IMG/VR virus record: IMGVR_UViG_3300021335_000022
Coordinates: 1 to 54,656 of that record
Source: a virus
Strand: one strand, 5' to 3'
DNA: 54,656 nt
The translations under genes and the position numbers were made by a program. Positions 18,101 to 35,707 of this stretch are shown here, piece by piece. Below the pieces are notes generated by a model that had not been told where the DNA came from, searched no databases, and saw only the letters and a program-made list of their open reading frames with translations. The first letter of the stretch is position 1. Each line of letters opens with the position of its first letter.

Positions 18101-21100
18101 TGCAGCAACAGTAGAATTTGCACAAGATCGTGTAGACGATGTATTAGATTGGATTAACAATTCAGGACCTAATGCAACTATAGATATTGCAACTGATTGG
18201 AGTGAAAATGCATATACAAATTCTTATAACCAATTAGTAGCACGTAAGAATGAAATTGTCGAAGATGTTGTATATTGGGTAGAAAAATTCTATCAGGAAC
18301 TAAAATATAATCAAGACACGTGTCGAAGAGACACAGGACTTATGGTAGATGCTATTGCACGTGATGTACTTACAGGTTCAAACTTTGCAACTACAAAAGC
18401 TGGAATGGCTTACTATAGACAAACAACATCTGCTAAAGCAGTAATTAATGATCAGTTAAAAGCGACAGTTGGATCGATTCAATTTTTAGCTGAAAAAGTT
18501 AAAAGAGTTGCAGCAACAAATCCAACAGCAGCAGTTGAATTGATTATTGATGATATTAATGCTTATATCAATGGTGGCGAACAACCAACACCTAAATGGT
18601 GTGCAACTGAAAGTTCAGACGCTAACGATGTAGCAGCATCATCTATTATTTGGGAAAATAAGAAATATATTACAGCAGAAGTTATTGAATTTATTGCACA
18701 AAATTCACCTACACTAACATATAACGTAGAAGATAAGAAGCAAGAAATTAGTAATGTTATTGATGCACTAAGATACGACCTAACATACGGAAGTAGTAGT
18801 GCAACAGTAGATGCAGGCAACTATTATTATCCAAACGGACAAGATAGTTTTATTATGTCTGAAGAAGAAAAGCAAGCAACTCTTGATGCTTATGATTATA
18901 TGAAGCAAATTGTAAGTGGACTAGCAGTTAACTCTGTTACAAGTCCTGGCGCAATTCAAGACGTTGAAACGCCTGTTTTAAGAGATTCTTTACAGATTAC
19001 AGGTAATGCTGGATCTGTTACAAAAGTGGAAGAATTAATGACTTCACTTTACAATGTACTTAGAGATCAAACAAATGTAGAAGAAATAGTAGTAACTGAT
19101 ATTACATCTAATGTGCTTACTTCAGGAACACACAATTTAAAATTAGGTGATACAATTACGTTCTCTGGATTAAACGACGGTACAATATACAATGTTAAAA
19201 CAACACCAACAGGAACTACGTTTACTGTATCTGAATACTTTAACGGTCCAACAGCATCCTTTGCCGACCAGCCAGGGACACTTATTCCAGGATATCCAAG
19301 TAGGAATGCAAACCTTACAGATGTAAATGCAACTATTAGACAACAATTTACAAATTTAACAGGATCTTTAGATGCAATTAAGACTTCTGTAACAGAATAT
19401 ATTGTTGAAAACTATCCAACTCTTGTGTACGACAACAATGCTGCGCAAGCAAATGTAGCAGACATTGTAGATGCAGTTGGTAGAGATATGATGAGCAATA
19501 CAAATTATCTAACAAATAATATTGCTAAATCATACTTCTATGATTTCAATCCAAAACTAATTGGCAATAACACAAATGCAACTGTACAAACATACAGAGA
19601 GTTGAAAAACAAAATTGCAACTTATGTAAACGGAAGTTCGCTTGCATTAAAACGTACAAACAACTTAATGGATATCATTATTCATATGATTGATAAAGGC
19701 AACGGCCAGACTCCGGAAATTAATGGTACAATGACGTACTTTAATGATAGAGAAACAATCAATGCAGTTGATGTACTAAAAGCAAATAGAAACTTCTTAG
19801 CTAGTGAAGCAGTTGCTTGGATTAACGCAAACTATGGCGGAACAGTAAATGATATCAACGGTTCACCGGGAACACTTACATTTACAGCAGCACATAACTT
19901 GGTTGTAGGAGATCCAGTTGTATTTGATTCAAACGCTTTCGGTGGCGCAGTTGCAGGCACAACATACTGGGTAACTAATGTACCAAGTACAACTACTATT
20001 GAAGTATCAGACTCAAAAGGTGGAGAAGCACTTACATTTGATGGCGGCGCTGGCTCTAGTGTTGTAACATACAAATTAAACGAAGAACAGCACCGTGCTT
20101 ATATTATTAGGTATATTGACTCTATTGTATATGATTTACAATATCCAGGTAATCATAAGTCTTGGAAGTCTGCAGAGCTATATCTTAATGCAATTAACGG
20201 ATCACTACGCTCTGATATGTATCACGTAAGAAATGCAACAGGTGTACGTAATATGACTGTTAACGGTTTACGTGGTAACTTGACAGAACTAAACAACTTT
20301 GGAACAAGACGTCCAACAGCAGGTTCTTATGTATCACTTGATCCAGGCTTTGGTCCTTGGGATACAGAAGCGTGGGTAACTAACAAATCTTGTTATGTAC
20401 AAAACGTAACTACATTCGGTGTAGGCTGTGTTGGTTGTAAGATTGACGGTGCATTACACGCAGGCGGTAACAGATCTATTGTTAGTAACGACTTTACACA
20501 GGTACTAAGTGATGGTATTGGTGTGTGGTGTAGCGGTAACAACTCACTAACAGAACTTGTTTCTGTGTTCGCATACTACAACTATTCAGGTTACTTAGCA
20601 GACTTTGGTGGACGAATTCGTGCAACAAACGGTAACTCATCTTATGGTACTTACGGTGTTATTGCTGAAGGTACTGACACTGGCGAAAATCCAATTTATG
20701 CAGAAGTTGATAACTTATCACAAGATGCACTTATCTCAAATGTAATTACAGACGGTGAAGAACAAGTGTTGCGTTTTGAATATTCAAATGCTGGTAGAGA
20801 CTACACTAATGCAGAAATTGCAATTAGTGGAGCAGGATTTAATGCAGCAGTTATTCAAGATGAATTTAGAGACCAAGCAGTTATTGAAACAAGACTGATA
20901 GATCTAGATGATAACAATGGCACAGGTGGTGATGACTATGTTTCAGCACAAAACGTTGCCCAGGGTGGTGATACAGTTTCAGCAACTATTGCTGCAACAG
21001 ACACAGCACTAGGCGGCGCTTATGTAGGAATGAATATTCAACTTACTGCTGGTACAGGTGTTGGACAATTCGGTAGAATTATATCTTTTAACAACGGTAC

Positions 21101-24100
21101 AAAACAAGTTAAAGTTTACAAAACAACTTCAGAACCATTTAATATTATTGGTACTGCATCAGCTAATAATAGAGTGTTTTATGACGCTGGAGAATTTACA
21201 CAGTTGTACGATAATATGCCAGTATACCTAAGTGCAGATATTGGAGGACTGACAGCGGCAACTCTTTACTATGTTGTATTCTTTGACGGTAGTTCGTTAG
21301 AATTAAGTACATCCGAAGGTGGCGCAGCAGAAACACTTACAAACTCTTCAGATAATGTTAAAATGTATGAAGCTGGTTGGGATCATATTATTCCAGGTAC
21401 TCCAATTGCAGCAGGCTTAGACCTAACAACAGGTTATAGAATTGAAGCAGCAATTGATTATACAGAACCAGGATTTACAGCAGTTGATCAAACAATGGCA
21501 ACAGCTAACATTAATTACGGTGCCCATACATATGCAGACAATAAATTTATTGCTCTACAGGACGGCGGGACAGCAACTAACATATCAACAGATGGTAAAA
21601 CTTGGACAGCAGGTGGCACATTGCCAGTATCCGGTAGTTGGACTAAAGTAGCATACGGAGGCGGCCAAGGCGCAACTGCAACAGCTATTGTTGGAGGATT
21701 AGGCGGATCTGGCGCTATATTAGAAGCAGAACTAGGCGAACTTAACAGCATTGGTTTACCAGGACCGACACAGATTGCTAGAGTAAATGTTGTAAATGGT
21801 GGACGCGGCTATGTAACTGCTCCGACTATTGTGTTTACAGCAGTACAAGGTGGCGGCGGCGCAAGTGCTGTTGCTACAGTTAAAGACGGTATTATTCAAG
21901 AAATTATTATTACAAGTACTGGTGCAGGTTATGCAGCAGCACCAACAGTAACAGCAGAAACAGACAAAGTTACTGAAATTATTGTTAATAGTTTTGGTAG
22001 AGGATATTTAAATGTTCCAACTATCACATTGACAGGTGGCGGAGCAAGCACACAAGCAAGTGCTACAGCAACAATTAATAATCAAGGTCTTGCAACAGTT
22101 ACTATCGATGTAGACGGAGATGACAATCCATTACGCGGTGAAGGATATACAAGTGCTCCAGAAGTAGTAATTACTGATAACAATGCAGGGTGGGTAGCAA
22201 TTTCTGAAGGTACTGCAAACAATGCATTCCTTGCAGCAGGTCAAACAGCAGCTACAAACTGGACAGGTGGATCTCCACTACCAGGTACTGCACACAATGA
22301 CATTGCTTATGGTAATGGTACTTGGGTAGCAGTAGGCGGCGACGGCAATGGTGGCGCAGCGACATCAACAGATGGTAGTGCTTGGGTGTCAAGAACAATT
22401 ACAACACTTGCAAGCGGTACTGACGAATTTATCGGAGTTGCGTATAACGGCATAAACTTTGTTGCAATTTCACAAAGTGATGAATCAGCAGTAAGTTCAA
22501 ACGGTATTACTTGGACAGCAGGTGGCGCACTTCCTACAGCAGTAGGTGATTGGGTAGCAATTGAATATGGTAACGGAAGATTTGTTGCTATTGCTACTAC
22601 AGGAGAAGTTGCAGTAAGTACCGATAATGGAACTAATTGGAGAGCTTCAAATGCAGGACTTGTAAATATTACAGACCCAACATTCTGGACAAACATTGGA
22701 TACGGTCAAGGTTTATTTGTAGCAGTAGGTGAAAACGTAATTGCTACAAGCCAATACGGATTAGATTGGAGCAGACGCTTTATTGATGGCACTGCTGAAA
22801 AATGGTATGGTGTTGCATTTGGTAACCCAGACAATGATCCGATTTGGTCAATTGGTAACGGACCGAGTGCAGCTACTCAAGGTTTACAACTAAGACTTAA
22901 AACTGGTGCAAAAGCATTTGGTAGATGTTTAGATGAAGATGGTTCTATAACAAGTATTAGACTTGCAGAACCAGGAAGTGGTTATCCTTGTGGTACAATT
23001 CTAAGCACAACTGCACCAAATACACTAGAAGTAAGTAGCTCAGATAATTTAAGACTAAATCAACCAATTGTATTTGAAGGAGTTAGCACCGGTTCTTCAG
23101 CAGGCGGCAGCGGCGGTGGCAGTGGCGGCGGTGGCTACAGCATATCAAATGTTGGCACTGGCACAGATACTACTGCAACCCCGATAGGATTAGATACAGA
23201 AACAGTTTATTATATTAAGTCAATTGTTGGTACAAATATTACTATTAGTTTAATTAAAGGCGGAGATGCATTTGATATTAGTACGGTAGATGCAGCGGAT
23301 ATTGGAGATGTATACTTTAAGGCAGGACCTGAAGTGACAATTACAGATCCTAATTCTACAATTCCTGCAGCAGTTTGGCCAAGACTTAGAGACGGAGCAT
23401 TAGCTAACCCAACCTTTACTAACAGAGGTACAGGCTATACAACTGCAACTGCTGAACTAGCAGGTGACGGTAGTGCAGACTTATATCAACCGGCAACATT
23501 TATTGCAGTACGAGGACTGTTCGAATTACCAGAACCTGGATCAAACGTTGAATTTGCGAACATTCCAAACGCTTGGTATAAACTTGTTACAATTAGTAAT
23601 GTTATTGGTCAACCAGGCAGCTATACGGCAACATTCCAAATTAGTCCAGGACTAACAGTATTAAATGCACCAAAAGACGGAATACGCCTTACTACAACTA
23701 ATAAGTATTCACAAGTACGTCTAACAGGACACGACTTCTTGTATATTGGTACAGGAAACCAAGCTAAGACAAATTATCCGTTTGTTGATATTACAACAGC
23801 GTATATTGAAGCTCAGCAACTAAGTTCGGGCGGTGGTAGAGTGTTCTTTACAAGTACTGACCAAGACGGTAACTTTAACGTTGGTGGCTTGTTTGGAGTT
23901 CAGCAGTCCACAGGTACTGCGACATTGGATGCTGACGCATTTAACTTAGCAGGCTTGCAGTCATTGCAGCTTGGCGGTATTGCAGTTGGTATTGGATCAG
24001 CTGTTATTACACAATTTAGTACTGACCCGTTCTTTACTGAAAACAGTGACAACATTGTTCCAACGCAACGTGCAATTAAATCATATATTACTGCACAAAT

Positions 24101-24275
24101 TGGTGGTGGACAATCAAGTCTAAACGTTAACACACTAACAGCAGGTGTAATATTCATTGCAAACGATGAAATCACTACTACCAGTGGAGGACAGCTAAAT
24201 ATTAAAGCTAAAATGAACTTTACAGGCGGTATTGACGGAGCTCCAGTAGCACTTGGATACTTCTTAAGCAGATAA
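12174..24275 (+). CDS. Giant adhesin with tandem helical modules, 4033 aa
   Basis: At 12.1 kb this is the largest gene in the window. Residues ~11-466 repeat the seven carbohydrate-binding-like W.GDW...Y..GDVV.YGG..Y modules of the upstream paralogue. A pectin-lyase-like start (NVIYVGPLGTDVP ~520; VFIKTGTYNEILPMILP ~801) is split by inserted helical modules. Between ~660 and ~2680 about twelve ~130-160-residue helical modules with the signature C.RD.G...DA..YD...GGN alternate in two flavours. The beta-helix resumes at ~2681 (YHVRNATGVRNMTV) and runs to ~2830. BNR/YCF48-like repeats (GNGRFVAIA, S.DG.TW) fill ~3105-3540, a Gly/Ser linker follows at ~3643, and STDQDGNFNVGGLF lies at ~3894. The ribosome-binding site and late box support the ATG at 12174. 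It is probably a host-recognition fibre. The paralogue next door has only one helical module, so the array is an expansion. Confidence 0.8.
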   Translation: MAEFKLGRIRFVWQGDWSASRAYVADDVVSFGGKSYICIKNHTSSTDFQTDFTDAIPKWDIVSDGTSWQGDWQPEFTYAPGDVVKYGSLVYIAETGHTSATFAAPDYLGLEADLDKWTPFATSFDWKGDWTINTRFKINDLVKYGGYVYLCNTAHVSSATVALGLEADQSKWTLFTEGLNYLGDWTTAVRYKVNDVVKYGGNVFIAITPHTSTGFVADEANWAVFIEGFQFEDSWDNSTNYQIGDTVTYGGYVYVAKTNNSNAQPTASPDDWDVFTTGFAFQGDWSSLDSYKVGDVVRVGGTTYVAIADSTDEVPPNASFWSRLNSGINWTQSTESYSQLSGTNAAGGSGSGARFDVTRSKTVYTVSVSTGFAGSGYAENDVITISGADIGGVTPANDLVVTVTAVDGGAVDTITHTGYSSSWIAGRTYNVGDVAIYGASSFIVTATHTSETANRPDNDLDASYWNLLTLGSEALALEVEGDLVYYGNQGPTRLPIGVDGQILRATGGFPDWANYGLIDNVIYVGPLGTDVPAPDSGLTIDKPFKSVGYALNQIKLGYLNPQTRDILKHNKQFMLKEITNWLKYTYSIVVTSTSAGTRRFTCASTENLQDNQPIVFTGEVFGGVVAGKTYYIDSIINSSEFRISETPAGVSFIPTDATGQMNGDLAYDEVKCERDTGLIIDALIYDVSRGGTLKTTEATKSYYTEAGNEYISSNLGFQREQTVRAYQQLKSLVQTVVANQTPVNFQSLTNIEHGFRAQQVVDFTLTAEDDGKTKLNTLMDIVIDGIEAESNTAIALPVLPNTTVFIKTGTYNEILPMILPEYTAVVGDELRTSVVQPKPADELLSSDKAKTTSALNRIKDISSELIQNVAVTPTVGNTTPQGYVNGYGGNTEGTNRINNGIEVTQDVLRTGLSIVDTMPAVGPAPTGGTGNASDAGYSNAVAQIEANYQFIKDEITAWIAVQVAGPIAPFAGSFTYNADKWNEYIEYTLDALRYDVTYGGNFQTTVQARSFFVDGSPAYAAGEKEELLATFAHLKTIVGDVITETAITPSAGNSTTQDTDGTAGSAAAETFAETLVQEIYDTIDTDGTLASEVTPDTSWISTSLTTWRSEIDTKKSEIQISVIDYINSNFGDFDYDSGSCRRDSTILLTSSAYDTALGTNFNSIRDGLAYRRQMGINVIQNQLTQTVGTITAERDLAVALISDSVAITRNTAYWNEVIDIVQNGTASADVISWSNPGVNTDKTTARESIQTNRTTIINALTSWINTNYPNLNYSQEICERDTGRVLDAVSYDIQYGGNSASYEAAKAYFEGYAETLPVSQRDASVAAFEQLSIITQGYITSAPEQAEANTLISIVSKAIEAGTLVALPTKTYPDYTWAAAAIEADADTLLADTTVVPATLQYVTDNYSTFEYNHTKCSRDIGYIVDGLEYDLLFNSTFNSLKSGMAYHRGLTSTDFVLAQQLEPSLAALDVVREEIKEITTGTQDVKDSIETIIDILVNDTNPSSYTITDPPNYDTGFFNARRLVVANKQFIIDEAEAYLVDNYNAVWTALTTAEQTEWLEEVGETVDSLRYDLTYRGNLETIVTARRYYVDNLFVKPAEDKAAFLALHVRLADIIDDIATGSAITRSASNVNTQDVSGTAGSVGAGAFALDRITEIKNTIDTGLLPALITPSVAFVDSELQNLKKSIDARVENIKTGAIAYIDQVYPSLTYDKVKCARDVGYIVDAITYDILFESDFRSSQAGLAYRRGITSTDYVLNNQLNATVQTIEFIEEQLLELTIGQYAEEGSRESSNKAYDLTIGMQTIVQNGLEALPPTVYPTHDEWGTDEYANTAYASASNTTGNTETFNHAVDRIVANHAFIRDEVRHWLEDPTNGYDTFWSGLTTASQDACIRDVGYILDSTRYDMIYGGNTQSLVTGSAYFVNFVLTIDSSEIGATIAAYGRLKTVLGEVIAGTTVTTSPGVTEVQDTSGSSGNAATVEFAQDRVDDVLDWINNSGPNATIDIATDWSENAYTNSYNQLVARKNEIVEDVVYWVEKFYQELKYNQDTCRRDTGLMVDAIARDVLTGSNFATTKAGMAYYRQTTSAKAVINDQLKATVGSIQFLAEKVKRVAATNPTAAVELIIDDINAYINGGEQPTPKWCATESSDANDVAASSIIWENKKYITAEVIEFIAQNSPTLTYNVEDKKQEISNVIDALRYDLTYGSSSATVDAGNYYYPNGQDSFIMSEEEKQATLDAYDYMKQIVSGLAVNSVTSPGAIQDVETPVLRDSLQITGNAGSVTKVEELMTSLYNVLRDQTNVEEIVVTDITSNVLTSGTHNLKLGDTITFSGLNDGTIYNVKTTPTGTTFTVSEYFNGPTASFADQPGTLIPGYPSRNANLTDVNATIRQQFTNLTGSLDAIKTSVTEYIVENYPTLVYDNNAAQANVADIVDAVGRDMMSNTNYLTNNIAKSYFYDFNPKLIGNNTNATVQTYRELKNKIATYVNGSSLALKRTNNLMDIIIHMIDKGNGQTPEINGTMTYFNDRETINAVDVLKANRNFLASEAVAWINANYGGTVNDINGSPGTLTFTAAHNLVVGDPVVFDSNAFGGAVAGTTYWVTNVPSTTTIEVSDSKGGEALTFDGGAGSSVVTYKLNEEQHRAYIIRYIDSIVYDLQYPGNHKSWKSAELYLNAINGSLRSDMYHVRNATGVRNMTVNGLRGNLTELNNFGTRRPTAGSYVSLDPGFGPWDTEAWVTNKSCYVQNVTTFGVGCVGCKIDGALHAGGNRSIVSNDFTQVLSDGIGVWCSGNNSLTELVSVFAYYNYSGYLADFGGRIRATNGNSSYGTYGVIAEGTDTGENPIYAEVDNLSQDALISNVITDGEEQVLRFEYSNAGRDYTNAEIAISGAGFNAAVIQDEFRDQAVIETRLIDLDDNNGTGGDDYVSAQNVAQGGDTVSATIAATDTALGGAYVGMNIQLTAGTGVGQFGRIISFNNGTKQVKVYKTTSEPFNIIGTASANNRVFYDAGEFTQLYDNMPVYLSADIGGLTAATLYYVVFFDGSSLELSTSEGGAAETLTNSSDNVKMYEAGWDHIIPGTPIAAGLDLTTGYRIEAAIDYTEPGFTAVDQTMATANINYGAHTYADNKFIALQDGGTATNISTDGKTWTAGGTLPVSGSWTKVAYGGGQGATATAIVGGLGGSGAILEAELGELNSIGLPGPTQIARVNVVNGGRGYVTAPTIVFTAVQGGGGASAVATVKDGIIQEIIITSTGAGYAAAPTVTAETDKVTEIIVNSFGRGYLNVPTITLTGGGASTQASATATINNQGLATVTIDVDGDDNPLRGEGYTSAPEVVITDNNAGWVAISEGTANNAFLAAGQTAATNWTGGSPLPGTAHNDIAYGNGTWVAVGGDGNGGAATSTDGSAWVSRTITTLASGTDEFIGVAYNGINFVAISQSDESAVSSNGITWTAGGALPTAVGDWVAIEYGNGRFVAIATTGEVAVSTDNGTNWRASNAGLVNITDPTFWTNIGYGQGLFVAVGENVIATSQYGLDWSRRFIDGTAEKWYGVAFGNPDNDPIWSIGNGPSAATQGLQLRLKTGAKAFGRCLDEDGSITSIRLAEPGSGYPCGTILSTTAPNTLEVSSSDNLRLNQPIVFEGVSTGSSAGGSGGGSGGGGYSISNVGTGTDTTATPIGLDTETVYYIKSIVGTNITISLIKGGDAFDISTVDAADIGDVYFKAGPEVTITDPNSTIPAAVWPRLRDGALANPTFTNRGTGYTTATAELAGDGSADLYQPATFIAVRGLFELPEPGSNVEFANIPNAWYKLVTISNVIGQPGSYTATFQISPGLTVLNAPKDGIRLTTTNKYSQVRLTGHDFLYIGTGNQAKTNYPFVDITTAYIEAQQLSSGGGRVFFTSTDQDGNFNVGGLFGVQQSTGTATLDADAFNLAGLQSLQLGGIAVGIGSAVITQFSTDPFFTENSDNIVPTQRAIKSYITAQIGGGQSSLNVNTLTAGVIFIANDEITTTSGGQLNIKAKMNFTGGIDGAPVALGYFLSR

Positions 24276-24632: not shown

Positions 24633-26852
24633 ATGGCACGTTATAATACAGCACCACAGACACTAGAAGTTACAGGAGAAACAGAATTTACCTATGCATT
24701 TACAGGTGGGATTATTAGTTTAACTGGTACTCCTGGCTACGAAGTGACAATGGTAAGTCCAGTGTTTTTCCCAGGAAGTAGACAAACATTTTATAATGCT
24801 ACTGCGGATATGATCACATTGACAACCGCAGCAGGACAAATTACTGGTAACGGTGTTACACTTGGAACATCAGTAGACATTCCAACAAACTCTACATATC
24901 AATTAACATCAGACGGCACAAACTACGTTCTAACAAGTGCGTTAGCAGGTACAACAGTATTTGAATTACCGTTAACAACAAATGACGTACTAAACGCAGA
25001 CGGTAAAGTAGAACTAAATCCTTTAGATAATAATGTAGAAATTAAACCAACAGGTTCGGGTACAGTTGATATCAGCCCTCAAAGTTCTGTCTCCATTCAG
25101 CCAGGGGCAACGGCTACTATTCGACCTACAGCTGATTTAATTTTAGCATCTGCATCAGGTACAGTTACACTAGGCGAAGTTGGAAAAGCATTAGTACTAC
25201 CAGGTAATTTAGATTTTACAGCAGCAGGACAAATAATTAATTTAGCACCAACTGGATCTAGTTCATCTGTTACTATTGACCCAGGCGGTGATACAATAAT
25301 TGGCGCAGGTGGCACACTTACTATTAGCTCAGATACACTAGGTAATATGAGCAATGTAAGAATTGGTGCAAGTAATCCTGCACAAGCAAACTTTACAAGT
25401 TTAGGCGCAACAGGTGCAGTAACATTCACTGCTAACACAGCATCGTCTAGCACGACATCAGGAACACTAGTTGTTACAGGTGGACTAGGAGTAAGTGGCG
25501 CAATTTACGGTGGTAGTTTACAAAGTACTCCAATTGGTAATTCAGCTCGTAGCTCGGGTGCGTTTACTTCACTAACATCAAACGGCGCAACAACATTTAC
25601 TGCTAACACAGCAGCAACAAACACCACAACAGGTACACTAGTTGTAACAGGCGGTATTGGCGCAAGTGGTGCAATTTATGCAGGAAGTATTCAAAACACT
25701 CCAATTGGTAGCTCAACTGCCAACAGTGGTGCATTTACAAGTTTAACAGCAAATTCTACTGTAGACTTTACAGGAACTACTGACGCTACTAATAACTCAG
25801 GCGACACAGGTACATTACGTTGTGAAGGCGGTGCAAGTATTGCCAAGCGTGTTTATTCAGGAGGCGGCTTTGTAGGTCCAATTGGTAACGTATCTCGCAG
25901 CACAGGTCAGTTTACAAGTTTAAGTGCAACTAGCACAGTAGGATTTAGTCCTGCAAATGCTAACGTAACAATTTCACCAAGTGGTACTGGTACAGTTACA
26001 ATGTCACCAGCAGGCGGTGGCTCAATTAACAATATGTCAATTGGTGCAACTACGAGAAGTACTGCACGATTCACAAGTTGTGATGTTAGTGGTAACTTAG
26101 ATGTTGCACGTTATATTAGACACACAGGCGATACTAATACGTATATTGACTTTGAAGGCGATACAGTAAGTATATACGCAGGTGGAAGTAGAGAAGTTAC
26201 AATTAATACTACAGGTGTACGTTTAGGTGACACAGGTAATGCATATATACAACCAGTAAGTGGCAACTATGGTTCACTCCAAATTGACGGTGGAGCACAC
26301 GGTGGTTGGGAAGGCTTAAACATTGGTGGCCGTTTTGTAATGATGCACGACAATTCAAATACAATGGGCCTTTACAATGACGTAGATAACCACTGGATTT
26401 TAGAACACAGTCGTAATGCTTGGACAAGATTGTATTACGATAGTGGTAATAAATTCGAAACACGAAGTGATGGCGCACAGACAAACGGCATTCATTACGC
26501 AACTGGTAATATTATTTCAAATACTTCAGATGCTAGACTTAAGACTAACATCGAAAACATACCAAACGCACTAGAAAAAGTGCTATCACTTAATGGTGTA
26601 ACATACAACTGGAATGAAAAGACTCCAGCAGAATTTAGTAAAGACAAAACAGAAGTTGGTTTAATTGCACAAGAAGTTGAAGCAGTGCTTCCTGAAATTA
26701 TACATAATGCACCGTTTGATAGAGACGAAGCAGACGTAAGTATTTCAGGTGAAGATTATAAAACATTGCAGTACGAAAGAGTTGTTCCTTTACTTGTAGA
26801 GGCAATTAAAGAATTAAAACAGGAAATAAATAGTTTAAAGGGAGATGCATAA
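24633..26852 (+). CDS. Tail fibre with C-terminal S74 intramolecular chaperone
   Basis: This encodes 739 residues. Residues ~1-115 form a beta-rich head, followed by Gly/Thr/Ser repeats with recurring 'TPIGNS.R..GAFTSL' and 'TGTLVVTGG.G.SGAIY' units (three to four copies, residues ~245-440), typical of trimeric beta-prism fibres. The C-terminal ~108 residues are a peptidase_S74 domain: NTSDARLKTNIENIP, then GLIAQEVEAVLPEII and a terminal coiled-coil-like VPLLVEAIKELKQEI. In this family the Ser and Lys of the SD.RLK motif (here S632 and K637) carry out autocleavage just before the Ser, releasing the chaperone after trimerisation. The ribosome-binding site is AGGGGA before ATG 24633. The stop is directly followed by the ATG of the Cys-rich gene (TAAATG), indicating translational coupling. 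It probably acts like a T4 gp37-type distal fibre. Confidence 0.88.
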   Translation: MARYNTAPQTLEVTGETEFTYAFTGGIISLTGTPGYEVTMVSPVFFPGSRQTFYNATADMITLTTAAGQITGNGVTLGTSVDIPTNSTYQLTSDGTNYVLTSALAGTTVFELPLTTNDVLNADGKVELNPLDNNVEIKPTGSGTVDISPQSSVSIQPGATATIRPTADLILASASGTVTLGEVGKALVLPGNLDFTAAGQIINLAPTGSSSSVTIDPGGDTIIGAGGTLTISSDTLGNMSNVRIGASNPAQANFTSLGATGAVTFTANTASSSTTSGTLVVTGGLGVSGAIYGGSLQSTPIGNSARSSGAFTSLTSNGATTFTANTAATNTTTGTLVVTGGIGASGAIYAGSIQNTPIGSSTANSGAFTSLTANSTVDFTGTTDATNNSGDTGTLRCEGGASIAKRVYSGGGFVGPIGNVSRSTGQFTSLSATSTVGFSPANANVTISPSGTGTVTMSPAGGGSINNMSIGATTRSTARFTSCDVSGNLDVARYIRHTGDTNTYIDFEGDTVSIYAGGSREVTINTTGVRLGDTGNAYIQPVSGNYGSLQIDGGAHGGWEGLNIGGRFVMMHDNSNTMGLYNDVDNHWILEHSRNAWTRLYYDSGNKFETRSDGAQTNGIHYATGNIISNTSDARLKTNIENIPNALEKVLSLNGVTYNWNEKTPAEFSKDKTEVGLIAQEVEAVLPEIIHNAPFDRDEADVSISGEDYKTLQYERVVPLLVEAIKELKQEINSLKGDA

Positions 26853-27716
26853 ATGGCAACTTGTTTATATAATGACGGCATTAGATTTCCAGACGGTACT
26901 TGCCAGAGAACACAGGGCCAGGCACCGGGCGGATTATTCCAATGCTATAATACTTGCTTAGTATGTAACGGCACACACAGATGTAGAGCACACTGTGGTC
27001 GCTGCGGATGTTGGTTTGCGTGTACTTGTGCAACTGCTATTACATTTGAAGTATGGAGCGGCGGCGGTTCAGGATCTGGACACTGCTGTTACGGTTGTCG
27101 ATGCGATATGGCAAACTGTGCCTCATTTGGAGGATATTACGGTAAAAAAACAATTAGAAGAATTGACGGACAGTTTAACCCAGGATGTTGTTATACATTC
27201 TGTGTAGGATCTGGAGGCAACGGAACATCAAACAATGGTTGTGGATGTTTTACTGCTTGCTGTCAGGGACCTAGAGGATGTTCTAGTTGGTGGAGCGGTG
27301 CAGGACTATGTTGTACTTGTATGCCAGGAGGACTAGGAGCATATGTAAGATATTGTACTTGTAAGTGTATGAGTATGGCAAACAGAACAGAAGGTTTTTG
27401 TAACCTTGGTATTTGTATTGGATGTAAATGGGACTTTGCAGACACAGGCGGTGAACCAGAATGGGACAAATCAGACAGTGGTTGTCAGTGCTGGGATAGA
27501 ACACAATCAACGGCTCCGTCGTATATGCTAAACAACAGACACACATATTATATGGCCAACAGTAGAACATACTGTGGATGTGCAAGTTGTTGTAGAGGAT
27601 TTAGACTTATTGCAATGGGTGGTATGAGTAATATGAAATCTTGGTGCGGTAACTTTATTTGTTTCTGTCGAGGAACACCTGGTATGCCGGGTATGGTCAG
27701 AGTAACTTGGAGTTAA
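26853..27716 (+). CDS. Extremely cysteine- and glycine-rich protein, candidate fibre-tip adhesin
   Basis: This encodes 287 residues with 42 cysteines (about 15%) and 46 glycines (about 16%), by manual count. Cysteines occur along the whole length as CC and CxC groups (for example CGRCGCW, CTCKC, CGCASCC, CFC), spaced by Gly-rich loops such as VWSGGGSGSGHCC. The N-terminus (NDGIRFPDGTCQRTQG) resembles the 'F.DGT.Q.T' opening of small tail-fibre proteins, and the C-terminus ends in VRVTWS. There is no signal peptide. It starts on the base after the stop of the S74 fibre and is followed by a tail-fibre assembly-type protein. This is the position occupied in T-even phages by gp38, a glycine-rich tip adhesin. 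The tip-adhesin role is inferred from position and composition; the cysteines could form disulfides or bind metal. No known family is recognised with confidence. Confidence 0.75.
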   Translation: MATCLYNDGIRFPDGTCQRTQGQAPGGLFQCYNTCLVCNGTHRCRAHCGRCGCWFACTCATAITFEVWSGGGSGSGHCCYGCRCDMANCASFGGYYGKKTIRRIDGQFNPGCCYTFCVGSGGNGTSNNGCGCFTACCQGPRGCSSWWSGAGLCCTCMPGGLGAYVRYCTCKCMSMANRTEGFCNLGICIGCKWDFADTGGEPEWDKSDSGCQCWDRTQSTAPSYMLNNRHTYYMANSRTYCGCASCCRGFRLIAMGGMSNMKSWCGNFICFCRGTPGMPGMVRVTWS

Positions 27717-27720
27717 CAAT

Positions 27721-28533
27721 ATGGCAAAAATAGATTTAAAAACAAACTTAGGTGTAGACATTGACGAAATTGAGTTGACCGACGAATACGGCACTGAATG
27801 GATCAAAGTTGAATACAGCTATGAATGTCCCAACAGCAACTATTTAGAAGGTTGGGACGATACTGATACTATAGACACAGTTTACATAGGACCAAAATAC
27901 CTATACTTTTATGCTAACAAAGAAGACGGATCGTTTGAACGTGTATATAGAGAACACGAACTGCAAGCTGCTGATCTAGAACCAGATCCAGAAACTTCTT
28001 TGATTAAATTTGACTGTGAGACTGATCCATTGGCAGCAGAAGTGTTAAGTGACTATCACAATAACTTTATGGATGCAGACGAATACGAACACGAAGTTGG
28101 TATGAAAATTATTGAATCTCCAGAAGGGTACGAAAATTTTGATTATCCTTATCCAATTCATCCAGATGAATTGTATTGCGATCAACGTAGCTATTGGAAC
28201 TTTGATGAGAAAAAAATTGTATTAGTAAAAATGGTTAACGAAGACTGGATCGGAAAGGCGACACCGTGGGCAGAAATTAGAATAGAAAGAGATATTCTAT
28301 TAAGAAACACAGACTCTTTATATATGACTTTTAAGGCTATGGACCCAGAAGGCGAAAAAACTTTAGAACTTGAAAAATATCGTCAACTACTACGAGATAT
28401 GCCACAGGCATTCGAAGGCACTGATATTCCCCTAATCTTTATCGATTCTATGTATCCAAAAACAAAATTAATCGAATATGATATTACAAGTTATGATGAC
28501 TACAATCCTAATGAAGATCCTAACAACGATTAA
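27721..28533 (+). CDS. Tail-fibre assembly chaperone-like protein
   Basis: This encodes 270 acidic residues. The C-terminal third contains WAEIRIERDILLRNTD, then a spacer and YRQLLRDMPQAFEG. This W..IR..RD.LL..TD ... YRQ.LRD.P arrangement is the hallmark of the phage tail assembly chaperone family (Phage_tail_APC type), usually encoded immediately downstream of the fibre it helps assemble. The first ~150 residues are acidic and unfamiliar, so it is longer than typical family members. It follows the Cys-rich gene by 4 bases, with TTGGAG as ribosome-binding site, and is the last gene before a strong terminator. It is likely a cytoplasmic helper for the upstream fibre genes and not necessarily a virion component. 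Confidence 0.65.
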   Translation: MAKIDLKTNLGVDIDEIELTDEYGTEWIKVEYSYECPNSNYLEGWDDTDTIDTVYIGPKYLYFYANKEDGSFERVYREHELQAADLEPDPETSLIKFDCETDPLAAEVLSDYHNNFMDADEYEHEVGMKIIESPEGYENFDYPYPIHPDELYCDQRSYWNFDEKKIVLVKMVNEDWIGKATPWAEIRIERDILLRNTDSLYMTFKAMDPEGEKTLELEKYRQLLRDMPQAFEGTDIPLIFIDSMYPKTKLIEYDITSYDDYNPNEDPNND

Positions 28534-28664: not shown

Positions 28665-29687
28665 ATGAAAAGATCTACAGTATTTTTTATCAACGGCGGC
28701 GCCGGTCGTGTGGTAACGTCAATCCCTGCATTTGAATTATACGAGAAAGAAAATCCCGATGATGATTTTATTATTGTATGCGAAGGCGGTATGGATTTTT
28801 ATAAAGGACATCCTACACTACATAAACGTGCTTATGATACGTGGCACAAGGGCTTGTTTGAACAGTTTATTAAAGATAGAGACTGTGTAAGTCCAGAACC
28901 GTATCGTATTTGGGAATATTATAATCAAAAGTGTAGTATTGCACAAGCATTTGATATCGAAATTAACAAAAAAGGTATTAGAGATTTACCTACTCCAACG
29001 ATTAGTCTTAATAAATCAGAAATTGCACAAGGTAAGTCAGTAGTTGATGAAGTCAGATCAGTAACAGGATTTAGTAAGGTAGTTGTAATCCAGCCTTTTG
29101 GTAGAGGAGTAGAACAAAACTTAATCGACCAAACATCAAGAAGTTTTAGAGTAGATGATATGCTTGCTATTGCAAATCAGCTAAAACAAGAATACGGCAT
29201 TATTGTTATGAGTGAATTACCGCTAAATCTTTACGAAGAAAACGAAAACGAGCACCCGTTGGCCTTACCACAAATTCCTGACTTACGTATTTGGTCAGGA
29301 GTAATTAAAGAAGCAGATCATTTCTTAGGATGTGATAGTGTAGGACAACACGTAGCAAAAGCATTAGGTACAAAAGCAACAGTTGTAACCGGCAGTACAT
29401 TTCCAATTAATACATCTTATCTAAATGATAAAGATGTTACCGTATTTGATATCGGTGAAGGTAAAAGAGTTTATGCTCCAATTAGAGCCAGTATGGAAGA
29501 AGAACCAGATAGGATAAACGATAAATCTATGGATATGAGTAAACAACACATTAATGATATTGTAAAATCAATTAAAGAAACAACAGGCAAATCTGTAAAA
29601 AGTGCGCCTAAGCCGCCGCAAGAAATGCAACAACCGCAAGGCGAAGTTTGCCCAACACACGGTGTAGTTCATCAAGGAGGTTATTAA
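28665..29687 (+). CDS. GT9-family (heptosyltransferase-like) glycosyltransferase
   Basis: This encodes 340 residues. The N-terminus MKRSTVFFINGGAGRVVTSIPAF is the GT9 nucleotide-sugar transferase start (G..G....S.P), and the C-terminal half has VVIQPFGRG and ADHFLGCDSVGQHVAKALG followed by VVTGSTFPIN, the conserved donor-site region of ADP-heptose:LPS heptosyltransferases. A Pro/Gln-rich tail (KPPQEMQQPQGE) ending CPTHGVVHQGGY is extra. With HldE, HldD and a GmhB-like phosphatase on the opposite strand, the likely donor is ADP-heptose; the acceptor (host LPS or phage fibre glycan) is unknown. The stop codon overlaps the next ATG by one base (TAATG), so the unit is translationally coupled. It is transcribed from the late promoter at 28625. 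Confidence 0.75.
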   Translation: MKRSTVFFINGGAGRVVTSIPAFELYEKENPDDDFIIVCEGGMDFYKGHPTLHKRAYDTWHKGLFEQFIKDRDCVSPEPYRIWEYYNQKCSIAQAFDIEINKKGIRDLPTPTISLNKSEIAQGKSVVDEVRSVTGFSKVVVIQPFGRGVEQNLIDQTSRSFRVDDMLAIANQLKQEYGIIVMSELPLNLYEENENEHPLALPQIPDLRIWSGVIKEADHFLGCDSVGQHVAKALGTKATVVTGSTFPINTSYLNDKDVTVFDIGEGKRVYAPIRASMEEEPDRINDKSMDMSKQHINDIVKSIKETTGKSVKSAPKPPQEMQQPQGEVCPTHGVVHQGGY

Positions 29688-31483
29688 TGAGTTTATGGAT
29701 CGCAGGTATTGCTAGAGGTCACAACGCAGGCGTATGCTTATTAAAAGACGATGAAATTGTATTTTCAATCGAAGAAGAAAGATTAACACGTAGCAAGTAT
29801 GATGGCGGACCGTTAGCGTCAATATTGAAAATTTTAGAGTACACAGACAAACTAGATTATATGGTTGTCTCGCATACTCAAACACTTAACGAAACTGCTG
29901 GTAGACTTGATTATACCAATGAAGATATCTATACAGGACTTGCAAGAAAAATGGGTCTTATCGAAGATGGCCATCCTTGGAATAAGCATCCACAAGTTAT
30001 TGATACTGCGATGTTGCATCATAAAATGCACGCCAGTTTAGCATTTTATAGATCAGGGTTTGAGGAAGCAGTTGCAGTAATTGTTGACGGTGCAGGAACG
30101 TGTTTTGCAATTGACGCAGATGGTGACCCTAGGTATATGTGGGAAACTGAAACAATTTATAAGTGTTCGTATCCTGACAATATTCAAACATTATACAAAA
30201 CATTAGGTTGTAAAGATTGGTTACCGACTGTAGCAAACGAAGCACCGGACACAGATATCTTTAACAACACTACTGGAACATTTGGCGCTTCACTTTCTGA
30301 CAGAGCAGGTATTGTTAAATGTTATGAAGCAGTAACCGAGTACTGTGGTTGGGACGCAATTGAAGCAGGAAAAACTATGGGACTATTTCCATATGGAGAA
30401 GAAAATTCTGGGATTCCTGAAATTTTTGATAGCACAGCACAGTGGCCTACTCCAATAAGCAACAGAAACTTATTTGTACCAAAGTATCCAAATAGTTCTA
30501 TGGTAAACGAAAGTCTATACGAACAACTGCGAGATCAACCAGGCGACAGTGATCCCACACTAATGAAAAATAGAAGAGATATGGCATATGCTGTACAAAC
30601 GCAAACTCAAAAAGCAGTAGCAGATGTAATTAAATATGCTGTAGAAATTAGTGGCTGTAAAAATGTAGTCATTAGTGGCGGATATGGACTGAACTGTGTT
30701 GCAAACTATTACTACCTTAAAGAATTAGAAAATGAAGGTTTAAGTATCTATGTAGAGCCAGTGTCAAATGACGGTGGTACAGCAATGGGTGCAGCGTTAT
30801 GGGCTTATAGAAGTATTACTAAAGATACTACAATACATCCACAGGCAGAAACTGTATATCTCGGACCTGAACACAATATCAGTGACAAAGATGTAACAGA
30901 AATGTGTGAAAAGTTTAATGCTACTGTAACTGAAGCTACAGATCAAGATATTGTTGATCTAATCACTAGTAGAAACATTGTAACAATATTTCAAGGACGT
31001 TCAGAAAATGGACCTAGAGCATTAGGTAATAGAAGTATATTATACGATCCAACAGATCCGGACGGTAAAGACTTTGTTAATAGTGTAAAGCATAGAGAGT
31101 ACTTCCGCCCATTTGCAGGTAGCATTTTAGAAGAAGATGTACACGAATGGTTTGATTTACGTGGTATGAAAAATTCACCTACAATGATGTATGCTGTAAA
31201 CTGTCAACCAGGTGTTGAAGAAAAGATTCCTGCTATTATTCACGTAGACGGAACTTGTAGAATTCAAACAGTAAATCAAGAACAGAATCCGAATTACTAC
31301 AATCTCATAAAAGCATTCAAAGATAAAACAGGTTGTCCTATTGTATTCAACACTAGTTTTAATTTAGGAGGCGATCCTTTAGTAGAAACACTAGAAGATG
31401 CATTTACAACATTAGCTAAAAGTGCTATTGAATATTTGTACCTGCCAGAATTAGGTAAGCTAGTAAAGGTTGAAAATGTTTGA
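29687..31483 (+). CDS. NodU/CmcH-type carbamoyltransferase
   Basis: I start this at ATG 29687 (MSLWIAGIARGHNAGVCLL) because AAGGAGG sits 6 bases upstream; an upstream in-frame alternative start at 29648 would lie inside the preceding gene. It encodes 598 residues, the normal length for the family. The Kae1-like N-terminal half shows GHNAGV, EEERLTRSK, the HHKMHA metal-binding motif (H-H-x-x-H), VDGAGT, and SGGYGLNCVAN. The C-terminal half has FQGRSENGPRALGNRSI and KHREYFRPFAGSI, diagnostic of carbamoyltransferases that transfer carbamoyl from carbamoyl phosphate to sugar hydroxyls. It overlaps the next gene by 8 bases. It probably carbamoylates the glycan built by the neighbouring GT9. Confidence 0.88.
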   Translation: MSLWIAGIARGHNAGVCLLKDDEIVFSIEEERLTRSKYDGGPLASILKILEYTDKLDYMVVSHTQTLNETAGRLDYTNEDIYTGLARKMGLIEDGHPWNKHPQVIDTAMLHHKMHASLAFYRSGFEEAVAVIVDGAGTCFAIDADGDPRYMWETETIYKCSYPDNIQTLYKTLGCKDWLPTVANEAPDTDIFNNTTGTFGASLSDRAGIVKCYEAVTEYCGWDAIEAGKTMGLFPYGEENSGIPEIFDSTAQWPTPISNRNLFVPKYPNSSMVNESLYEQLRDQPGDSDPTLMKNRRDMAYAVQTQTQKAVADVIKYAVEISGCKNVVISGGYGLNCVANYYYLKELENEGLSIYVEPVSNDGGTAMGAALWAYRSITKDTTIHPQAETVYLGPEHNISDKDVTEMCEKFNATVTEATDQDIVDLITSRNIVTIFQGRSENGPRALGNRSILYDPTDPDGKDFVNSVKHREYFRPFAGSILEEDVHEWFDLRGMKNSPTMMYAVNCQPGVEEKIPAIIHVDGTCRIQTVNQEQNPNYYNLIKAFKDKTGCPIVFNTSFNLGGDPLVETLEDAFTTLAKSAIEYLYLPELGKLVKVENV

Positions 31484-32099
31484 GTTAGTTTTTGGTAGTT
31501 TAATTTTTAAAACAAAAATGCCTAATCACGAAGAAATTAAACAAGGATTTTTGCCTTTTTTAAATGATGACAACGCATTTAATACTTCTAATAGATGGGA
31601 CTGTAACTGTGATACTACGATGCATCACGAAGACCTTAATAGTAAATTACCTTGGAATTTATTTTTCCAAAATATACAACCAGGACTAGGACCGTACTTG
31701 CAAGAAATCGGTCTTAAACAAGAATATAAAGACAAAATACAATCTTATGCGTGGGCTAATAGATATCATCAAGGACAACATCAAGAAGTACACGCACATT
31801 CCGGCGATAATAATTTAGTGAGTTGTGCGTATATTTTAGATCAAGCAGGAGAAAATACTGCTGAAAATGACGGTATGTATGGTCAATTTATTTTTTATAA
31901 TAGTGCGTCAGAGCCATTTTCTCCGTTTCAAATGCATTTATTTGAAGAACCCGAAAGATGGACTGCAAGACACAATCCGTTTTTACAAGAAGGGGATATT
32001 GTGTTTTTTCCGAGTACGCTAAATCATTATGTCACGTGGAATAAAAGTGATACTATAAGAGCATCAATTAGTGCTAACTTTAGGATTTTAGAAGATTAA
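31476..32099 (+). CDS. 2OG-Fe(II) oxygenase-like protein
   Basis: This encodes 207 residues starting at ATG 31476 (MFELVFGSLIF), overlapping the carbamoyltransferase stop by 8 bases. It has a double-stranded beta-helix pattern with candidate iron ligands in HQEVHAHSGDNNLVSCAYIL and, near the end, GDIVFFPSTLNHYVTWN followed by DTIRASISANF. The last His would be the distal ligand and the Arg would bind 2-oxoglutarate. This matches the small 2OG oxygenases (TIGR02466-like) that are common in marine T4-like phages. The substrate is unknown; the context suggests a sugar or a glycoprotein side chain. Its stop overlaps the stop of the opposite-strand phosphatase by four bases (TTAA). Confidence 0.7.
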   Translation: MFELVFGSLIFKTKMPNHEEIKQGFLPFLNDDNAFNTSNRWDCNCDTTMHHEDLNSKLPWNLFFQNIQPGLGPYLQEIGLKQEYKDKIQSYAWANRYHQGQHQEVHAHSGDNNLVSCAYILDQAGENTAENDGMYGQFIFYNSASEPFSPFQMHLFEEPERWTARHNPFLQEGDIVFFPSTLNHYVTWNKSDTIRASISANFRILED

Positions 32100-32779
32100 C
32101 GATCTAAATAATCTGCAAACTGAGCAAGATCGTCAAATATGATGGTCTTTTTCTTTATCTTTTGATTACTAAATTTATTTAATTCTTTAATAGTCTCTTC
32201 GCCATAACCGGTACGTACTAATACAGGTTTTGCACCCATTTTAAATGCAGCTTTTAGATCTGATATCTTATCACCTACAAAGAATCCTTTGGAAAATTTA
32301 ATAAAGGGCATTTCTTCTTCACACCTCTTAAACATACCCGTGTTAGGTTTTGCAAAGCCGTCTGCTCTTAGACTAGTCTCACTGTAATACAATGCATCAA
32401 TACTGGAACACCCTGCTTTGCCCAATAGATCAAACATATGATCGTGTACACGTTCTACATCGTCTGTTGTATAGATACCTTTTGCTATTCCGCCTTGATT
32501 AGTAATAATTGCAATTTTATGACCCAAACGTCTAATCTTAGCAATAGCTTCTAAACTACCCGGTATAGGCTCAAAGTCTTCAACTCGATAAGTATATTCA
32601 CCCCTATCAACATTGATAACACCGTCTCTGTCTAAGCCGACAACAACTTTAGGTGCAATATTATGAACAGGATCATAAAAAGGAATGTCCTCAGGTTTAG
32701 GCTGATTAGTCCATCCCATATTAGTTTTAGGTGTTTGTTCTTGTTTCTTAGGAGCATTACTCCACATATTGTATGCCAT
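32096..32779 (-). CDS. gmhB-like: GmhB-like HAD phosphatase (heptose bisphosphate phosphatase family)
   Basis: This encodes 227 residues. After a ~45-residue polar N-terminal extension it shows the GmhB/HisB-type HAD order: GLDRDGVINVD (nucleophile and acid aspartates), a FEPIPGS..AI segment, IITNQGGIAKG (motif II Thr), KPNTGMF (motif III Lys) and FFVGDKISDLKAA (motif IV). GmhB removes the 7-phosphate from D-glycero-D-manno-heptose 1,7-bisphosphate between the two HldE steps. The zinc-binding Cys/His loop of Escherichia coli GmhB is absent: the equivalent stretch reads YYSETSLRADGFAKP. It is therefore a zinc-loop-less variant, and a different sugar-phosphate or histidinol-phosphate-type substrate is possible. 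It is the last gene of the - strand unit, with its ATG adjoining the preceding stop. Confidence 0.72.
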   Translation of the reverse strand: MAYNMWSNAPKKQEQTPKTNMGWTNQPKPEDIPFYDPVHNIAPKVVVGLDRDGVINVDRGEYTYRVEDFEPIPGSLEAIAKIRRLGHKIAIITNQGGIAKGIYTTDDVERVHDHMFDLLGKAGCSSIDALYYSETSLRADGFAKPNTGMFKRCEEEMPFIKFSKGFFVGDKISDLKAAFKMGAKPVLVRTGYGEETIKELNKFSNQKIKKKTIIFDDLAQFADYLDR

Positions 32780-33346
32780 CTAAATACCTACATTAAATGC
32801 AATAGTAGTCCTTACTACGTCTATTCTTTTTGTAACTACCTTGTGTTTTAGATATGAAGGGAACAACACTAGTCTTCCTTTTTCTGCTTTAACATCATAA
32901 TGTGCTTGAAAGAAGGGTTTAGAGCCATCGTGATGTTGTACATATTCTGCAATAGTATTCGGATTATAAAATCTAATGTAGCCTGCATTTTCGTTAGCAC
33001 GTAGCCAGTAAACGCCACTAATACCATCAATGCCGTGGCCGTGCATATCGTGGCCTTCATCGTCTTTGTAGTCTTGGGTCCAGTAGTGCAGTCCTTCGCC
33101 AGTTTGTATACTGGTTGCTTCTTTATATTCAGCAATACATTTAGCCCATTCGTCGGTTAGCTCAGGAGCAATTTCGTGATACCGGATTTTAGTTTCCCAG
33201 AAATCTGAACGACGGTAATCATAATCATCTCCGTTGTTTTCTAACTTGTCTAACTCTGGGACAATACGTGTTTCTAATTCATCTGCTAAATCAGCAGGAA
33301 TACGGTAGTCTAAAATTGGAACTGCAAAAAAACTACTTACTGTCAT
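32780..33346 (-). CDS. 2OG-Fe(II) oxygenase-like protein (second copy)
   Basis: I choose ATG at 33346 (MTVSSFFAVPIL, 188 residues); an in-frame GTG at 33358 would add four residues. The core GHDMHGHGIDGISGVYWLRAN supplies candidate iron ligands and the SG.Y strand typical of phage 2OG oxygenases, and the C-terminal GRLVLFPSYLKHKVVTKR...VRTTIAFN gives the distal His and the 2OG-binding Arg. It has the same fold class as the gene at 31476 but is divergent in sequence, so these are not recent duplicates. The start overlaps the end of the cupin gene by 14 bases and its stop adjoins the ATG of the GmhB-like gene, so it is translationally coupled in the heptose unit. The substrate is unknown. Confidence 0.7.
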   Translation of the reverse strand: MTVSSFFAVPILDYRIPADLADELETRIVPELDKLENNGDDYDYRRSDFWETKIRYHEIAPELTDEWAKCIAEYKEATSIQTGEGLHYWTQDYKDDEGHDMHGHGIDGISGVYWLRANENAGYIRFYNPNTIAEYVQHHDGSKPFFQAHYDVKAEKGRLVLFPSYLKHKVVTKRIDVVRTTIAFNVGI

Positions 33347-33737
33347 CTTGTTTGTCACTCAACTTTTGACTGTCACCTGGACCGATACGGTAATTGTCTT
33401 CTACACTGTCAGGTGTACTTACTTCAGTAACACTACCTTCTTTAGATAAGCAAATTAATTGATGCGGCTGTAATGGTGGATTATGCCAAGTAGAACCTTC
33501 TATTAGCTCTTGCTCATAAAGTTTAGAATCTTTAGTGTCGATCCATTTTACTTTAAACTTGCCACTATTAACAAACCAAGTCTCGTCTTTTTCCCTATGA
33601 AAATGCATACTGGTCTGTGCCATTTCTCTGTTGAATACCATAATTTTACCACAATACTTTTCATTTGTGGCCCAAATCATTTCGTAACCCCAACCTTTTT
33701 GGTCGACGCCACTTTTTCTAGTTGGTTGCTGTTCCAT
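33333..33737 (-). CDS. Cupin, mannose-6-phosphate isomerase-like
   Basis: This encodes 134 residues with a single cupin barrel. Motif 1 is MHFHREKDETWFVNSGKFKV (H-x-H-x4-E-x6-G), and motif 2 contains PLQPHQLICL with the fourth metal ligand. The opening KGWGYEMIWATNEKYCGKIM is typical of the cupin domain of type II phosphomannose isomerases. There is no nucleotidyltransferase domain, so a full isomerase/GDP-mannose enzyme is not present. In context it could isomerise or bind a sugar phosphate feeding the heptose pathway. It overlaps the HldD gene by 20 bases and the downstream oxygenase by 14 bases, a tight operon. Confidence 0.75.
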   Translation of the reverse strand: MEQQPTRKSGVDQKGWGYEMIWATNEKYCGKIMVFNREMAQTSMHFHREKDETWFVNSGKFKVKWIDTKDSKLYEQELIEGSTWHNPPLQPHQLICLSKEGSVTEVSTPDSVEDNYRIGPGDSQKLSDKQDDSK

Positions 33738-34536
33738 TAATATATTCCTCTACTGTTGCAAAGTTAATATCTGTAACTTTACTTAATTTATCTATGTTTG
33801 CACACGTATATTCCTGATACTGTGATTGTAAGTAATCGGGCATTGGAATATACTCTATAGTTGCATTGTATGTTTTTGCAACTAGATCTGCTATTTTTTG
33901 AAAGCTCTCAGCTTTTCCCGTACCAATATTAAAAAGGCCCGGTTTTTTATTTTCTAACAACTGCTTATGTGCTTCGCAAACATCGCCTACAAATACAAAA
34001 TCTCGTTCGTATTGGTCGCTGTTTTCAAATAGTGCAATAGTGTTACTTTCTTTTGCTTGTTTAATAAATTTTGTTATAGGACTTGCTTGATTACCTTTGT
34101 GATCTTCTAGTGGTCCGTATACATTAAAATAACGAAAGCCCTGAACACAAACTTTATGCTCTTGTTGCCACACCCATCTGTCGAACAAATACTTACTCCA
34201 CGCATACGGTGATTGTGGAGACTTTGGATCATCTTCTCCAAATTTTTCATACGGTCCGTAAACACTTGCACTAGAAGCATACTGAAAATTAACTCCTTTT
34301 GAGTTGCATTGGTTATAGAGCCATTTACTAAATTCGTAATTCTGTAGCATTACTTTATCTACATCTTGTTCTACTGTGCTTGATATTGCACCAACGTGTA
34401 TAACCCAATCAAACCCTTCAACTTCGGGTAAGTGTTCTTCCTGCCATTCATATCCAAATAGTTCGTGATCTGGTTGTAAATAAAAAGTTAGGTTTTGACC
34501 AATGAAACCTTTGTGTCCTGTAATTAAAATTTTCAT
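33718..34536 (-). CDS. hldD: ADP-L-glycero-D-manno-heptose 6-epimerase-like (HldD)
   Basis: This encodes 272 residues, slightly shorter than E. coli HldD. It is an SDR-extended fold with ITGHKGFIGQN (NAD(P) loop), SSASVYGP, catalytic YAWSK (Y-x-x-x-K), and the HldD-diagnostic run FRYFNVYGPLEDHKGNQAS. Further on come RDFVFVGDV, FNIGTGKAESFQ and IEYIPMPDYLQSQYQ, all with direct counterparts in E. coli HldD. The enzyme converts ADP-D-glycero-D-manno-heptose to the L-glycero form. Its ATG overlaps the HldE stop (ATGA). This is one of the more confident assignments in the island. Confidence 0.88.
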   Translation of the reverse strand: MKILITGHKGFIGQNLTFYLQPDHELFGYEWQEEHLPEVEGFDWVIHVGAISSTVEQDVDKVMLQNYEFSKWLYNQCNSKGVNFQYASSASVYGPYEKFGEDDPKSPQSPYAWSKYLFDRWVWQQEHKVCVQGFRYFNVYGPLEDHKGNQASPITKFIKQAKESNTIALFENSDQYERDFVFVGDVCEAHKQLLENKKPGLFNIGTGKAESFQKIADLVAKTYNATIEYIPMPDYLQSQYQEYTCANIDKLSKVTDINFATVEEYINGTATN

Positions 34537-35672: not shown

Positions 35673-35678
35673 ATTACT

Positions 35679-35707
35679 ACTATACAATCTTTTACCGGAT
35701 TAGTCAA
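35679..35707 (-). promoter_or_regulatory. Sigma70-type promoter for the HldE unit
   Basis: Read on the - strand, TTGACT (35707-35702) is followed after exactly 17 bases by TATAGT (35684-35679). The expected start of transcription, 6-7 bases downstream, coincides with the hldE ATG at 35672, so the message may be leaderless. The two boxes match the host housekeeping consensus in all but one and two positions, which predicts early or host-polymerase expression, unlike the late box of the facing unit. Confidence 0.75.

Follow-up and report, generated by a model that had tools for sequence, protein, structure and literature searches.

The open reading frame at positions 26853–27716 (plus strand) of the window, the whole stretch of 54,656 nucleotides analysed here, raises the question of what a protein packed with cysteines does among the fibre genes of a phage. 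The frame is intact and encodes 287 residues, including 42 cysteines and 46 glycines. A sequence-only reading had given the length and the cysteine count, which were re-obtained exactly, and had described CC and CxC clusters alternating with glycine-rich loops, a pattern that is found as described. The protein (P0001) consists of 14.6% cysteine and 16% glycine. In the 14 neighbouring genes of the same strand there are 57 cysteines among 12,292 residues (mean 0.46%), and against this background 42 cysteines in 287 residues correspond to a binomial P of ~2e-48. P0001 probably forms the distal tip of a myophage tail fibre, the part that binds the receptor. For this tip we infer virion location, trimer state, receptor binding and cysteine chemistry.

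The gene and its neighbourhood

The following features, all on the plus strand, surround and include the gene.

12174–24275, plus strand: giant fibre protein of 4033 residues
24292–24612, plus strand: small fibre-region protein of 106 residues, resembling PSSM2_302 of P-SSM2 by eye
24633–26852, plus strand: long-fibre protein of 739 residues with a C-terminal Peptidase_S74 intramolecular chaperone
26853–27716, plus strand: the putative fibre-tip protein P0001, rich in cysteine and glycine (287 residues, 42 Cys, 46 Gly)
26853–26930, plus strand: N-terminal segment of P0001, residues 1–26 (MATCLYNDGIRFPDGTCQ...), mostly of low model confidence
27721–28533, plus strand: Phage_tail_APC fibre-assembly chaperone of 270 residues with 3 cysteines
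28665–32099, plus strand: sugar-modification genes for a glycosyltransferase-like protein (no Pfam match), a NodU carbamoyltransferase and a 2OG-Fe(II) oxygenase

The ATG of the gene follows the stop codon of the preceding S74 fibre gene without a gap, and the chaperone gene begins a few bases past the end of the tip gene. The assignment of both neighbours, on which the location proposed earlier depended, is borne out by Pfam matches to Peptidase_S74 upstream (PF13884, E 2e-19) and to Phage_tail_APC downstream (PF16778, E 1.3e-8). In each of the six orthologous loci examined, the S74 fibre gene abuts the tip gene, and the order of S74 fibre, cysteine-rich tip and chaperone recurs in relatives of P0001. 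Among 61 equivalent open reading frames neighbouring tip relatives, 14 match PF16778 at E≤0.01. The protein encoded at 27721–28533 is probably the folding chaperone of the tip, and residues 1–26 of P0001 are probably the segment by which it is attached to the fibre.

Length and start of P0001 are conserved in the orthologues of the IMG/VR contigs L002, L003, L004, L007, L012 and L014, which argues against a frame artefact. Identity to P0001 is 80–97% for L002–L004 and ~64% for L007–L014. The orthologues have dN/dS values of 0.06–0.20, except for L002 (0.46), which is 97% identical and offers few changes. In L003 all 42 cysteines are kept despite synonymous changes in 14 of their codons. Over eight orthologues with identities down to 63%, 37 of the 42 cysteines are invariant, versus 73 of the 199 residues that are neither cysteine nor glycine (Fisher P 7e-10). 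The gene is real and under purifying selection.

Judged by its gene content, the window represents part of the genome of a large T4-like myophage. The tail-sheath protein shares ~33% identity with its counterparts in PA5oct and Atu_ph07, and the window also encodes a terminase and UvsX. The N-terminus of the giant fibre protein (MAEFKLGRIRF...) resembles the fibres of P-SSM2 and S-SSM7 that precede their cysteine-rich tips, and sugar-modification genes adjoin the tip in the window as well as in cyanophages.

A larger surface-sugar cassette lies beside the fibre genes at 28665–36134. It comprises the glycosyltransferase-like protein, the NodU carbamoyltransferase, two 2OG-Fe oxygenases, a GmhB-like HAD phosphatase, an epimerase, HldE-like PfkB and cytidylyltransferase proteins and a NUDIX protein. 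Similar genes follow the cysteine-rich tips of P-SSM2, S-SSM7 and S-CAM1. Its products may alter sugars on the host surface, or else the fibre.

Family and predicted fold

The earlier statement that no named family fits P0001 does not hold. Residues 35–287 match positions 33–285 of the 287 positions of phrog_4205, a profile of unknown function, with E 5.2e-17. A Pfam search of P0001 gave no match at E≤1, and the protein stays below the cut-off of Gly_rich_2 (PF21722), as do L007 and L014 (64% identical; 19.4 and 18.0 bits, cut-off 24.3). Two of the three S-SSM7 members score above this cut-off, 13 of 18 diverse relatives match Gly_rich_2 at E≤0.1, and the relatives above the cut-off cover nearly the whole domain. 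In terms of sequence, P0001 is a Gly_rich_2 homologue through intermediates, not a member by score.

In Synechococcus phage S-SSM7 the phrog_4205 profile identified three tandem genes, and in P-SSM2 it identified two; the products of all of them are rich in cysteine and glycine (28–36 Cys). S-CAM1, S-CAM3 and Sf-FS3 have three members each (24–36 Cys). All of these cyanophage members are annotated as hypothetical. Profile-profile alignment of P0001 yielded E 5e-9 over 211 columns with the S-SSM7 proteins and E 3e-6 with those of P-SSM2. The gene order of fibre, cysteine-rich tip or tips, chaperone and carbamoyltransferase is found in S-SSM7, S-CAM1, S-CAM3 and Sf-FS3, and P-SSM2 has a variant of it.

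Scans of IMG/VR with cyanophage members reported 205 and 192 related stretches. Hundreds of relatives are present in marine phage contigs, often two or three in tandem, and 436 open reading frames in 174 loci have at least 6% cysteine and at least 10% glycine; the highest cysteine fractions are those of P0001 and its closest orthologues. Homology of P0001 to this set is supported by HMM matches as well as by the profile-profile alignments. The family match is not an artefact of composition, since E 0.01 was reached by 22 real relatives but by none of 2,772 sequences obtained by shuffling or reversal. In tblastn searches of annotated phages neither P0001 nor its chaperone gave a match; for P0001 low-complexity masking is the probable cause, because tblastn did find relatives of other types. 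A pattern scan of bacterial and archaeal genome contigs found no relative, PDB sequence searches gave chance matches or none, and no description of these cysteine-rich tips was found in the open-licence literature.

In S-SSM7-type loci three tandem paralogues are present nearly throughout. This points to a tip built as a hetero-oligomer, or to several tips. Locus L177 (21–4933) contains five cysteine-rich open reading frames in tandem.

AlphaFold2 models were built on alignments derived from the window and the collected loci only. The model of P0001 is of moderate confidence (mean pLDDT 66, pTM 0.74); that of an S-SSM7-type relative reaches pLDDT 79 and pTM 0.78. For P0001 the best match in the PDB is the Pam3 fibre (7ypx_A, Z 14.7 over 188 residues), and the relative aligns to the same chain with Z 17.8 over 190 residues (2.7 Å, Foldseek E 2e-7). 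Next come the tail tip of mycobacteriophage Bxb1 (Z 11.0 for P0001) and the ALK/LTK glycine-rich domains (Z 7–8 for P0001, 7–10 overall). For both models these matches lie well above unrelated entries. Matches in BFVD include S-CAM3, P-SSM2 and many phage proteins annotated as glycine-rich domain-containing. According to the models, P0001 has the TNF-like plus glycine-rich fold of the Pam3 gp24 type. S16 gp38 (6F45) is absent among the structural matches listed.

Separately, matches to the glycine-rich domain lie inside open frames of 3182 and 3702 residues in Sinorhizobium phage Phosso (PV764938, 50936–64877). This jumbo phage from soil has a tail sheath protein similar to that of the window.

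In the proposed arrangement, the tip would cap the S74 fibre encoded just upstream, and the chaperone from the next gene downstream would fold it. The core of the tip would be a TNF-like β sandwich, whose connecting loops would extend into a lattice of glycine-rich strands that ends in variable contact loops. No virion proteome of a phage carrying the cysteine-rich family was found in the literature; S-SM1, S-PM2 and Syn9, for which virion proteomes exist, have no cysteine-rich members.

Fibre tips set the host range of abundant marine phages. At hundreds of loci, including those of textbook cyanophages such as P-SSM2, tips with 6–15% conserved cysteine are annotated only as hypothetical. Their recognition as receptor-binding tips would make them host-range genes open to study in cultured phages.

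Role of the cysteines

Throughout the family cysteine is the least substituted residue (0.7% in 125 close pairs, versus 3.2% for glycine and 17% for serine). The number of cysteines per protein is even in 66 and odd in 68 of 134 representatives. Among the close pairs, 28 differ in cysteines, 17 of them at one position only. Since odd and even counts are equally frequent and single changes outnumber paired ones, it is unlikely that all cysteines pair up in disulfides within a chain. These data allow free thiols, metal sites, bonds between subunits, or a conserved core of paired cysteines to which unpaired ones are added. One possible disulfide pair is C53–C113: exactly these two cysteines, both in predicted strands, are lost together in L004, a single event that may reflect their bonding.

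The preferred reading, held tentatively, is partial or inter-subunit disulfide stapling of the tip after release. The cysteines would stay reduced during chaperone-assisted folding in the host cytoplasm. After release into oxic water, part of them would form disulfides within and between subunits and would rigidify an otherwise floppy glycine lattice. A broader proposal, possible but less secure, is that many marine phages make the tip in reduced form inside the host and that it is oxidatively cross-linked or metal-loaded only after lysis, maturing in seawater.

Thioredoxin was found in none of seven phage records, with a control positive in 13 of 14 genomes. A search for Erv/ALR sulfhydryl oxidase gave no match in the phage records searched, but its control likewise matched nowhere, so that this negative carries no weight. 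PSSM2_312 (L031, 17637–17993), annotated as cysteine dioxygenase, is located ~4.5 kb downstream of the second cysteine-rich tip of P-SSM2.

Alternatively, the fibre-tip cysteines could bind iron, zinc or copper in thiolate clusters that are assembled in the cytoplasm and carried by the virion, comparable to the iron-loaded fibres of the Ferrojan or Trojan horse proposal. The CxC, CC and CxxC clusters and the conservation of nearly all cysteines without parity are consistent with this, and marine phage fibres have been proposed to bind iron, there through HxH motifs (PMC11705849). However, neither P0001 nor its relatives match a metal-binding family; Pfam searches of the relatives returned Gly_rich_2 only, plus one sub-threshold match to NTS_2. 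A cytosolic zinc-ribbon family, a match to which the sequence-only reading had named as refuting its proposal, is likewise not matched, nor is any other cytosolic metal-protein family. The PDB entries that match strongly are adhesin-like or receptor domains. Furthermore, many different residues, mostly polar ones, replace cysteine at the variable positions (N, T, G, Y, Q, H, E), and metal ligands, His included, are not favoured. An enrichment of Cys-to-His changes that at first seemed possible vanished once events were grouped. Metal binding is considered rather unlikely.

Most cysteines could also be free thiols, providing a compact polar surface of the lattice or exchanging with thiols of the host surface. 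The counts without parity, the frequency of single changes and the mostly polar replacements fit this explanation. So do the proteins at the equivalent fibre locus of Syn9, which manage with few cysteines and far more glycine: gp36 has 35% Gly and 8 Cys, and gp38 has 22% Gly and 2 Cys. As Syn9 gp38 is among the BFVD matches, the high-cysteine tip is one version of a fold that can also function when cysteine is scarce. Within the cysteine-rich set, no trade of cysteine for glycine is seen (Spearman −0.05). On the other hand, one would expect free surface thiols to be replaced by Ser or Ala over time, whereas cysteine is the most conserved residue type. General chemistry also predicts that free thiols oxidise in oxic water. 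This explanation is regarded as rather improbable.

A zinc-ribbon or metallothionein-like protein that binds metal or regulates in the cytosol and lies among the fibre genes by chance is suggested by the high cysteine content alone and is extremely improbable, as P0001 has no zinc-ribbon or metallothionein match in Pfam at E≤1 and fold, family, operon and chaperone context all favour a fibre protein.

Syn9 gp39 (L200, 19150–20328) contains two near-identical copies of a glycine-rich stretch that is also common to gp38. The segment between the copies reads as if out of frame, an arrangement suggestive of a recent duplication accompanied by a frameshift.

Comparison with known systems

The sequence-only reading had likened P0001 to gp38, the tip adhesin of T-even phages. 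The position of the tip between fibre and chaperone supports this part of the comparison; the predicted fold is that of Pam3 gp24 and not specifically that of S16 gp38. T-even and S16 gp38 have in common with P0001 the position after a fibre gene, glycine-rich loops and presumed receptor contact. The Pam3 paper describes gp24 and S16 gp38 as greatly different in structure.

The TNF-like plus glycine-rich arrangement of the P0001 model is also present in the ALK/LTK receptors. These are ectodomains of animal receptors, and no functional link is implied.

Among the closest known systems are phrog_4205 and the cyanophage proteins SSSM7_114-116, PSSM2_304/306, SXBG_00224-226, T040910_100-102 and SfFS3_97-99, which are rich in cysteine and glycine like P0001. 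They share the opening W..P...FE.WG.GG and the fibre locus with P0001. Unlike P0001, they occur as two or three tandem paralogues with 24–36 cysteines (~8–12%), and in the cyanophages examined no S74 fibre lies directly upstream of the tips. The hosts of these phages are Synechococcus and Prochlorococcus. The gene psbA is present in P-SSM2 and S-SSM7, whereas it was not found in the window's group, whose records are partial.

Pam3 gp24 (PDB 7ypx, 7yfw) resembles P0001 in predicted fold over 188–190 residues, and in both cases a fibre-assembly chaperone (gp25 in Pam3) is encoded alongside. Cysteine and disulfides are not mentioned in the Pam3 paper. The glycine-rich domain of gp24 has 39% glycine, whereas P0001 has far less glycine and is rich in cysteine. 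Furthermore, gp24 is a single protein with its own helical shaft, whereas P0001 would be a separate tip behind an S74 fibre.
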